DNA from: Amycolatopsis sp. WQ 127309
GTDB lineage: Bacteria; Actinomycetota; Actinomycetes; Mycobacteriales; Pseudonocardiaceae
DNA length: 64,000 nt
Assembly (NCBI RefSeq): GCF_023023025.1
Contig: NZ_CP095481.1
Coordinates: forward strand, 6,275,001-6,339,000
Reading direction: 5' to 3'
Shown: piece by piece, positions 13,538 to 15,877 of the stretch
Layout: each line of letters starts with the position of its first letter
Position numbering within the stretch: position 1 is the first letter of the stretch
The notes under the pieces: generated by a model
Database searches by the model: none
Told to the model about the DNA's origin: nothing
Seen by the model: the letters and a program-made list of their open reading frames with translations, nothing else
Translations under genes and position numbers: made by a program

Positions 13538-13559
13538 CCTGATATCAGGGAACCTGATA
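13538..13559 (-). promoter_or_regulatory. Overlapping palindromic operators before the acyl-CoA operon
   Basis: Three half-sites overlap. CCTGATATCAGG (13538-13549) is a perfect 12-nt palindrome, and TATCAGG (13543-13549) with CCTGATA (13553-13559) forms a 7-3-7 inverted repeat. The site lies just downstream of the predicted promoter and overlaps the ribosome site. This is as expected for a TetR- or GntR-type repressor that responds to the acid or acyl-CoA. No regulator gene is directly adjacent. Confidence 0.6.
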
Positions 13560-13600: not shown

Positions 13601-14641
13601 TCAGTGGCGCACGACGCGCAGGTCGGCCACCTCCAGCAGGCCGTCGAGGTCGACGTGCCCCTTGAGCTGCCGCGGGTCCGGCACCAGCCCTTCCGCGCGG
13701 ACGACGTCCAGCAGGCGGCTGGCCAGCGGCAGCACCATGTGACGGCCCCAGCAGCGTTCACTCACGTGGCCGAACGGCAGGTAGCCCGGGTGGGTGTCGG
13801 CGTCCAGGTCCGCCCAGCGCTCGGGGCGGAACTCGTCCGGGTCGTCCCAGAGCGCGGGGGAGCGGTGGCTGACGATCGGCAGCAGCAGGACGTCGTCACC
13901 AGGGGTGATCCGCGCGTCGACCTCGGTGTACTCCGGCGAGCGGACGCGCAGGATGTTCCACGACGGCGGCAGCAGCCGCAGGGCTTCGTCGAGCACGTGC
14001 TCGTTCGGGACGTCGTCGGCGAACGGCGCGCCGAGCCAGACCGCGTTGGTGACCAGAGCGGCGACGGTGAAGCAGATCGGCGCGGCGACGCGGCGGTAGA
14101 GGTACATCCGGAAGCGCCGCTCGGCGAAGCCGTCCGCCGCGAGGACCTGGCGCGCGAGGGTGGACAGCTCCCGGCCCTCGGGGGACGGCGGGAGCACCGC
14201 GGACCCGGTGGTGACGGCCGACCAGGTCAGCTTCGGGGTCAGCTCCAGCCGTCGGTCGACGAGTGTCCGGAACCGGCGGGTTTCGGGGCCGAAGACCAGG
14301 TCACGCAGGTGGGCGTGCGGCACGGCCGGCCACTTCCCGGTGAGGTCGGGCCGGCCGGCGGGCTTCTTCAGGGCGGCCCGGACGTCCGCGCCGACGGCCT
14401 GCATCAGGCTCGCGGACTCCGTCCGGGTGACGCGCCGGCCGAGGACGGGCTTGAACGTGGGCCGTTCCTCGGCGTTCGCCGGGCGGGCCAGGAGCAGGGC
14501 GTTCATCAGATCGGGGTCCGCGACGCCGATGGTGTCCGGTTCGAGCCGGAAGAGCTCGCCGCCCCGGTGCTCCCGCAGCAGCCGGTCGATCCGGGGTGCG
14601 AAGACAGTGTGTTTTGTCCGGTTGCCGGCGGCGATGACCAC
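13601..14641 (-). CDS. Cytochrome P450, candidate RiPP cross-linking enzyme
   Basis: 346 residues, shorter than most bacterial P450s (about 400), mainly at the N-terminus. The K-helix ExxR is Glu219-Arg222 (DEALRLLPPSW), followed by FRPERW (271-276). The heme cysteine is Cys297 in LPFGHVSERCWG. That loop departs from FxxGxRxCxG: the conserved Gly is Val293 and the Arg/His position is Glu295. The I-helix reads AALVTN, keeping Thr198 but lacking the usual acidic residue. The gene is preceded by a 25-codon peptide gene rich in Trp and Tyr and a hairpin; no other enzyme is linked. P450-only RiPP pathways (atropopeptides, biarylitides) cross-link aromatic residues in exactly such peptides, so this is the likely role (inference). 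Confidence 0.85.
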   Translation of the reverse strand: MVIAAGNRTKHTVFAPRIDRLLREHRGGELFRLEPDTIGVADPDLMNALLLARPANAEERPTFKPVLGRRVTRTESASLMQAVGADVRAALKKPAGRPDLTGKWPAVPHAHLRDLVFGPETRRFRTLVDRRLELTPKLTWSAVTTGSAVLPPSPEGRELSTLARQVLAADGFAERRFRMYLYRRVAAPICFTVAALVTNAVWLGAPFADDVPNEHVLDEALRLLPPSWNILRVRSPEYTEVDARITPGDDVLLLPIVSHRSPALWDDPDEFRPERWADLDADTHPGYLPFGHVSERCWGRHMVLPLASRLLDVVRAEGLVPDPRQLKGHVDLDGLLEVADLRVVRH

Positions 14642-14669
14642 GCTTCCGTGCTCCTTCGGGGGAATCGGT

Positions 14670-14700
14670 GGGCCGGTTCCGGGATGCCCGGAACCGGCCC
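14670..14700 (-). other. Hairpin between precursor peptide and P450 genes
   Basis: Arms at 14670-14683 and 14687-14700 form a perfect 14-bp stem with a 3-nt loop. No U-run follows. It lies between the peptide stop codon and the P450 ribosome site. Such intercistronic hairpins can act as a partial terminator or as a 3' stabiliser, giving more precursor message than enzyme message. Confidence 0.6.
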
Positions 14701-14716
14701 GATCCGATGGTGCGGA

Positions 14717-14794
14717 TCAGATCCAGCCGTACCAGGCGTAGGCCTTCAGGCTCTTTGCGGGGAGCGCTTTCTTGACGAGACGAACCAGCTTCAC
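14717..14794 (-). CDS. 25-aa RiPP precursor peptide, atropopeptide-like (core near AWYGWI)
   Basis: GTG at 14794 is preceded by a near-perfect AAGGAGG (14801-14807) with a 6-nt spacer, and the frame ends with TGA at 14717-14719. The peptide starts MKLVRLVKKALPAK and ends SLKAYAWYGWI: a basic leader followed by an aromatic C-terminus. The last six residues A-W-Y-G-W-I match the A-W-Y-x-W pattern of the tryptorubin A core AWYIWY, an atropopeptide made from a tiny precursor by one P450. Here a P450 is the next gene on the same strand. The gene is too short for usual gene callers. What I see: strong ribosome site, codon bias and adjacency. What I infer: the leader/core boundary and cross-linking. 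Confidence 0.8.
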   Translation of the reverse strand: MKLVRLVKKALPAKSLKAYAWYGWI

Positions 14795-14851
14795 CGACGT
14801 CCTCCTTCGTTCGTGTGAAAGGGATCCCGCGTCCGCGATCATCCGGGGACC

Positions 14852-14882: not shown

Positions 14883-15109
14883 GAACGAACTTGCGGTTGT
14901 CCATTCCCTGTCCGGTCGCCGGTGAGCGGGAATGCCCTACGAACGTCGGTATTGATCGAATTCGCCTTCGATGCTACGGAATGGATTTACACACACGTAT
15001 TTCATTCTTCACATTCGTGTCTCCGGCGGCATGTTCGAGACGGCCCTCGGGTGGGTAGCCAGGGGGTGTGGTGGGCGACGTCCGCCGATACGAGTGGAGA
15101 GGTGAAGCC
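14883..15109. other. Low-GC intergenic region upstream of peptide-P450 unit
   Basis: The stretch from about 14940 to 15020 is much richer in A and T than the rest of the window and contains no gene I can support. It separates two divergent units, so it probably holds their regulatory DNA. The composition shift might also mark a border of the peptide-P450 locus. Confidence 0.5.
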
Positions 15110-15877
15110 ATGGGCGACGCTGCGGTCGGGCAACGAGTGAAGACGGCGGCGGCCGGCGTGCGAGAGCTCGCCGTCGAGGCCGCGCGAGTGGGCGCGGACG
15201 CGGCCGCACGGGCGGTGGAGATCACCGACCGGAAGCTGACCGAGGGGGCCGACGAGCTGGCTCAGGTCGGCCGCAAAGCGACGAAGGACTTCGACAAGGG
15301 CACGAAGGCGTCCCGCCGTGAGCTGCGGGTGAACTCCGTCGCGGCGCGTGACGAGGTGCTGGCCCGTGCGGTGAAGATGCGCGACCCGGGCCGCAAGGCC
15401 GCCGAGGCGGTCGCGGCCGTCGTCGGTTCGAGGGGTGATTCCGGCCGGAAGCGCCGCAAGACGGTGGCGACGGCGAAGAGGGACCTGACGGCGGCGCTGG
15501 CCGAGGCCAAGAGCGCGGCCAAGGGCGAGCGGTCGAAGAAGGCCCGCTGGCCGTGGCTGCTGGGCATCGCGGTCCTCGCCGCGGGTGCGGCGGCGGTGCT
15601 GCGCGCCAAGCGGGGCAACCCGCTGGCGGAACCGCAGCTCCACGAGGCCGACGCGGCCGCGGAGAAGGCGGCCGCGCAGGCCAACGGCAACGCGCCGAAG
15701 CCGCCGGTGACCCCCGCGACGCCGCCGCCGGCCCCGCAGAACGGCGCGAAGACCCCGGTGGCGAAGCCCCCGGCGGCGCCGACGAGCAGCGGTGTGAAGC
15801 CCGCGGTCGTCCCGCCGAAGCCGGCGGTGACCCCGCCGAAGCCCGCGCCGAGCCCGGAGAACAGCCCGAAGAAGTAG
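15110..15877 (+). CDS. Membrane-anchored Ala/Lys-rich protein with Pro-rich tail, unknown function
   Basis: The protein has 255 residues from the ATG at 15110, with GGAGAGG 7 nt upstream. Residues 1-140 are a long, charged, alanine-rich helical region. One membrane segment follows (WPWLLGIAVLAAGAAAVL, about 145-162). The C-terminal 90 residues are a low-complexity Pro/Ala/Lys tail. The order suggests a cytoplasmic helical domain, one membrane pass and an extended tail, similar to small envelope or cell-wall-associated proteins of actinomycetes. No enzymatic motif is seen. It ends in two TAG codons followed by a terminator. Confidence 0.7.
   Translation: MGDAAVGQRVKTAAAGVRELAVEAARVGADAAARAVEITDRKLTEGADELAQVGRKATKDFDKGTKASRRELRVNSVAARDEVLARAVKMRDPGRKAAEAVAAVVGSRGDSGRKRRKTVATAKRDLTAALAEAKSAAKGERSKKARWPWLLGIAVLAAGAAAVLRAKRGNPLAEPQLHEADAAAEKAAAQANGNAPKPPVTPATPPPAPQNGAKTPVAKPPAAPTSSGVKPAVVPPKPAVTPPKPAPSPENSPKK

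Follow-up and report, generated by a model that had tools for sequence, protein, structure and literature searches.

The locus described here lies in a stretch of 64,000 nucleotides from Amycolatopsis sp. WQ 127309 (contig NZ_CP095481.1), which we call the window, and consists of a very small gene and a cytochrome P450 gene on the minus strand, separated by 75 nt, with a stem-loop in the gap between them (Table 1). The small gene is a frame of 25 codons whose translation is VKLVRLVKKALPAKSLKAYAWYGWI, followed by a stop codon. The first-pass annotation of this DNA had proposed a 25-codon gene with a near-perfect ribosome site, followed by a P450 on the same strand, and the frame, the ribosome-binding site and the order and strand of the two genes are all confirmed; a 25-codon RiPP precursor had been correctly picked out from the raw sequence alone. 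The start codon of the precursor is GTG in 22 of 23 related rows and ATG in the remaining one. There is also a longer frame of 41 aa, which begins at an upstream ATG; among the 30 loci from the taxonomic family, a long frame like it is found only in the nearest relative (L010). The P450 matches Pfam PF00067 with 52.7 bits over residues 215-302, and Cys297 and the ExxR pair do not vary across 28 aligned sequences, that of the window among them. When its AlphaFold2 model (mean pLDDT 83.3) was compared with solved chains, the 50 nearest listed were all P450s, at modest TM-scores, roughly 0.4 to 0.6, and with large rmsd. The closest protein to the P450 is 99% identical and belongs to Amycolatopsis sp. 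NBC_00348.

Table 1. Features of the precursor-P450 locus, in window coordinates.
Feature	Position	Strand	Evidence
Atropopeptide precursor gene, 25 aa; leader VKLVRLVKKALPAKSLKAY, core AWYGWI	14717..14794	-	Translation, NF038372, conservation, pN/pS
Ribosome-binding site AAGGAGG of the precursor gene	14801..14807	-	Sequence; 6 nt before GTG start
Stem-loop between precursor and P450 genes: perfect 14-bp stem, 3-nt loop	14670..14700	-	Folding
Ribosome-binding-site-like AAGGAG of the P450 gene	14651..14656	-	Sequence
Atropopeptide-modifying cytochrome P450, 346 aa, GTG start; Cys ligand C297, ExxR E219-R222	13601..14641	-	Pfam, tree, alignment, AlphaFold2

Downstream on the same strand, Pfam (used alone for these assignments) places an acyl-CoA ligase-like protein, an enoyl-CoA hydratase, an acetyl-CoA-synthetase-like protein and a 3-hydroxyacyl-CoA dehydrogenase, and upstream, on the same basis, a frame without Pfam assignment, a TetR regulator and an FAD monooxygenase. 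No protease is present among the 8 neighbouring ORFs scanned with Pfam, 2 of which are without a Pfam match. A search for seven of the neighbours in the best 80 of 118 named loci, with flanks of 5 kb at most, matched the FAD monooxygenase alone, once, at 34%. This enzyme, encoded 2 kb upstream, could in principle serve as a tailoring enzyme, an association that is not conserved. Also in the vicinity is a 269-aa frame rich in Ala, Lys and Pro (15068-15877) with no Pfam match. The gap from the P450 gene to the acyl-CoA ligase gene that comes next contains a palindrome, CCTGATATCAGG (13538-13549), which we take to resemble the operator of a regulator.

The peptide passes the NCBIfam model NF038372, 'tryptorubin family RiPP precursor', with 44.3 bits against a cut-off of 33 (E 1.6e-11), and four other precursors used as a check pass it too (37.8 to 53.3 bits). 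On searching the organism's own 11.1-Mb genome with this model the peptide was the sole match at E<=1, and the same search on control genomes gave matches below the cut-off in 4 of 14. The pooled pairwise pN/pS of 23 related precursors (L024 dropped), uncorrected for multiple hits, is 0.227, indicating purifying selection, and this codon conservation speaks for translation of the frame. Among 390 genomes from the taxonomic family, 32 carry a relative of the P450 at E<=1e-40 (33 matches); 30 of these matches make up the taxonomic-family locus set, the 3 weakest being without a locus. A precursor relative lies upstream of the P450 relative in all 30 of these loci and is intact in 29, the exception being L024, where a stop falls on the core Trp. 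The best 80 of 118 named loci likewise have a precursor relative upstream of a P450 relative in 80 of 80 cases, with 78 precursors intact by pattern, one recognised by eye (L072, motif KNLK) and one with a stop codon (L046); the two sets overlap in organisms, and L024 and L046 are the same copy from Amycolatopsis echigonensis. Besides actinomycetes, these best 80 include the linked pair in Xanthomonas, Dyella, Collimonas and Luteibacter. The conservation of the peptide next to P450 homologues, on which the first-pass annotation had made its proposal depend, holds in both sets. In the A. echigonensis copy (strain JCM 21831, L024:1200-1500) the stop falls at the conserved core Trp and the P450 frame is open, which may be due to recent loss or to an error in the sequencing. 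This relative, together with the shortness of the frame, would be the argument for regarding the small frame as no gene, or the pair as a decayed remnant; but both frames are intact in the window, the peptide passes a curated model and the pN/pS is low, and we give this alternative practically no weight. A mere chance frame is ruled out by the same model match and pN/pS, along with the conserved place of the frame upstream of P450 relatives.

Atropopeptides have been defined by a P450 of the class, a KSLK leader motif (or a listed variant) and a Trp at core position 2 (PMC11450843). The window precursor carries KSLK at residues 14-17 of its leader, where 23 of 23 related precursors have KSLK or RSLK, and has Trp as the second residue of its core, A-W-Y-G-W-I. 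Its P450 falls, with support 100, in a clade of 29 rows that includes SvaB, the characterised varsorubin P450, in a tree of 92 rows (88 from the family and 4 other P450s of the organism's own genome as outgroup) built by a quick method with SH-aLRT support, whose outgroup branches are very long and whose root is unsure. This tree samples 9 of the 30 taxonomic-family loci, with L114 left out for its cut P450 and L099 entered as a 108-residue fragment, and ScaB, TryB and the P450s of biarylitide, cittilin and other RiPP families lie outside it. SvaB is represented by the Streptomyces varsoviensis locus L060 (core SWYQWL), which agrees in contig and position with the sva cluster of PMC11450843. 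Cores in the clade are intact AWYGWI in 24 rows (hand count), the rest being AWYGWV, AWYGWL, AWYNWI, SWYQWL and the broken A. echigonensis core, and one Gly core, AWYGWY (L034), is found outside it. The atropopeptide-type identification made at first pass is thereby supported by the precursor model, by the leader motif with Trp2 and a class P450, and by the grouping with a characterised atropopeptide P450, within the tree sampling just described. That the P450 does not act on the peptide and stands beside it by accident is barely credible against a linkage of 30 of 30 and of 80 of 80 (best 80 of 118), in actinomycetes and four other named genera, and against the published expression of sva (PMC11450843), whose P450 is in the same clade. 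A pair of some other P450-RiPP family (biarylitide, cittilin or ApyO-type aminopyruvatide) is suggested by the best NCBIfam match of the P450, which is ApyO (61.2 bits), an enzyme of the P450 type that joins two Tyr of a different RiPP (PMC13192836). This match spans 98 residues and scores far too low for the cut-off, which is 525 bits, and an ApyO-type pathway is rejected because of it; the precursor has both KSLK and WxxW, it clears the threshold of the tryptorubin-family model, and its 25 residues contrast with biarylitide precursors, which are pentapeptides (PMC13417212). Membership of another such family is, in our judgement, very improbable. We read the locus as an Amycolatopsis gene pair of the minimal kind for making an atropopeptide (RiPP), with the mechanism and products proposed below, and put the probability of this at about 0.96.

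The atropopeptide family was named in 2022 (PMC12352619) and over 650 clusters of it have been predicted (PMC11450843); the gene pair is an ordinary member of this already described family. That such a small gene is easily missed by annotation, as had been stated at first pass, applies less now, since antiSMASH 8 has a new rule for atropopeptides (PMC12230676) and the NCBI precursor model NF038372 exists, and with these the loci are less easily overlooked.

AWYGWI is the core in 29 of the 92 distinct precursors tabulated, and core position 4 varies widely. Judged by the 29-row clade and by these precursors, the Gly core is a common and large sub-group of atropopeptides, to which the window adds a member, and the view taken at first pass, that Gly and the terminal Ile depart from the family, does not hold. 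Both residues had also been expected to alter the cross-linking options. This has to be given up for Gly, which offers no side chain for linking but sits at a core position outside the bonds described: the three-bond pattern of varsorubin B1 uses the two Trp, the Tyr and one backbone amide (PMC11450843), so that Gly4 need not change which side chains join. In ScaA, nine of ten tested changes at core 4 were accepted, Gly not being among those (PMC12352619). For Ile the expectation stands, as the fourth link of laurentirubin B is an aryl ether with the last Tyr (core 6), made by a second P450 (PMC11450843), and is ruled out here by Ile at core 6; Tyr at core 6 and a second P450 are both absent at this locus.

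In the described members of the family, the leader guides the precursor to its P450, which forms one to three bonds involving the two Trp, the Tyr and a backbone amide, and proteases release the core, often minus its first residue (PMC11450843, PMC12352619). By analogy with them, the two genes of the window would probably be on one transcript, the KSLK-bearing leader would dock the precursor on the P450, and the P450 would oxidatively join the aromatic side chains of AWYGWI (Trp2, Tyr3 and Trp5, possibly also a backbone amide), after which host proteases encoded elsewhere would remove the leader and perhaps also the first Ala. The products of the sva pair are varsorubin B1, which is WYQWL less 4 H, and varsorubins B2a and B2b, which are WYQWL less 2 H, SvaB making from one core products with different links (PMC11450843). 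By analogy with SvaB in the same clade, products minus 4 or 2 H may be expected, and the likely product would be a cross-linked WYGWI (computed [M+H]+ 720.3140 minus 4 H and 722.3297 minus 2 H) or AWYGWI (791.3511 and 793.3668, respectively). By the same computation AWYGWI is equal in mass to WYQWL, the varsorubin peptide. The number of links here is uncertain because ScaB makes mostly one link, and trimmed tetrapeptides (PMC12352619). On the jum cluster it has been noted that the structure of a product is poorly predicted by where its P450 is placed (PMC11450843). Kitasatide 1019/1017 (PMC12299652) was considered as the product and rejected, its masses fitting SAWYFWY minus 2H/4H by hand calculation. 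Neither a mention of AWYGWI, WYGWI or AWYGW nor a product of the sub-group was found in the main texts of the literature searched, figures and supplements being outside the search. On the codon level, the Ala directly before the core Trp is encoded by GCC in 77 of 86 cases and the Ala three codons before the Trp in 30 of 63 (92 distinct precursors), a preference that either a nucleotide-level constraint or relatedness may explain.

The gap between the two genes of the window, folded with 4 flanking bases, has a z of -5.21, and the exact 12-bp-arm sequence of the stem occurs a single time in the genome. Across the family, 67 of 94 precursor-P450 gaps reach z<=-2 and 42 reach z<=-3. Random windows from the same loci do so in 84 and 35 cases, respectively, out of 1096, and control co-directional gaps, taken from rough ORF calls, in 8 and 4 out of 49. 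The 94 gaps are what is left of 109 after taking out 12 duplicates and 3 under 40 nt; their ends rest on P450 starts chosen by script, and related genomes among them are not independent, so that the test values for the comparison with the co-directional gaps cannot be read as true probabilities. Strong folds are over-represented in the precursor-P450 gaps of the family, with a role that is putative. The 27 of 94 gaps with z above -2, some of them without a strong fold (L070, L087, L118), count against a family-wide role. In an alignment of 19 gaps, drawn from 24 by omitting L025 and L029-L032 for their differing stems and hence biased in favour of structure, 18 or 19 rows preserve each of 12 pairs out of 13, but 12 of the 19 rows leave the outermost one unpaired. 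On this alignment, three of five measures lie above all 500 shuffles and the other two are unremarkable (280/500 and 177/500); two-sided changes are seen in two pairs, with 8 of the 10 such cells coming from one pair (UA/CG). No T-run follows the stem, and a terminator scan of the window did not pick it.

Our guess is that the stem acts by partial termination or by protection of mRNA. A tentative proposal, to which we give somewhat under even odds, is that in actinomycete and proteobacterial atropopeptide operons the stem-loop keeps the P450 far below its substrate through partial termination or protection of the upstream mRNA; if true, it would be a family-wide device that sets the enzyme-to-substrate ratio. 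Such a dosage effect would fit the 100-fold rise in yield obtained with a new ribosome-binding site before svaB (PMC11450843). The terms hairpin, stem-loop, terminator, attenuat- and intergenic are absent from the main texts of PMC11450843 and PMC12352619. With the stem-loop, the locus offers a putative regulatory feature in its intercistronic gap that can be put to the test.

Among known systems, the locus of Amycolatopsis xylanica (L097) shares the genus, the layout and the KSLK leader with the window, but its core is AWYIWW and its P450, 57% identical to that of the window, is outside the 29-row clade; A. xylanica is the species named as the amyxirubin producer, and that L097 would be the amyxirubin cluster is taken from the species name. 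The likeness to tryptorubin A lies in the xWYxWx core and in the window precursor passing NF038372, while core positions 4 and 6 are Ile and Tyr in tryptorubin A (core as given at first pass) and Gly and Ile here. The varsorubin genes svaA and svaB of S. varsoviensis (L060) resemble the window in the two-gene pair, in the KSLK leader and in a 14-bp stem between the genes, and SvaB is 63% identical to the window P450 and belongs to the same 29-row clade. The core is SWYQWL there and AWYGWI here, and the varsorubin products have been solved (PMC11450843), whereas those of the window are predicted.
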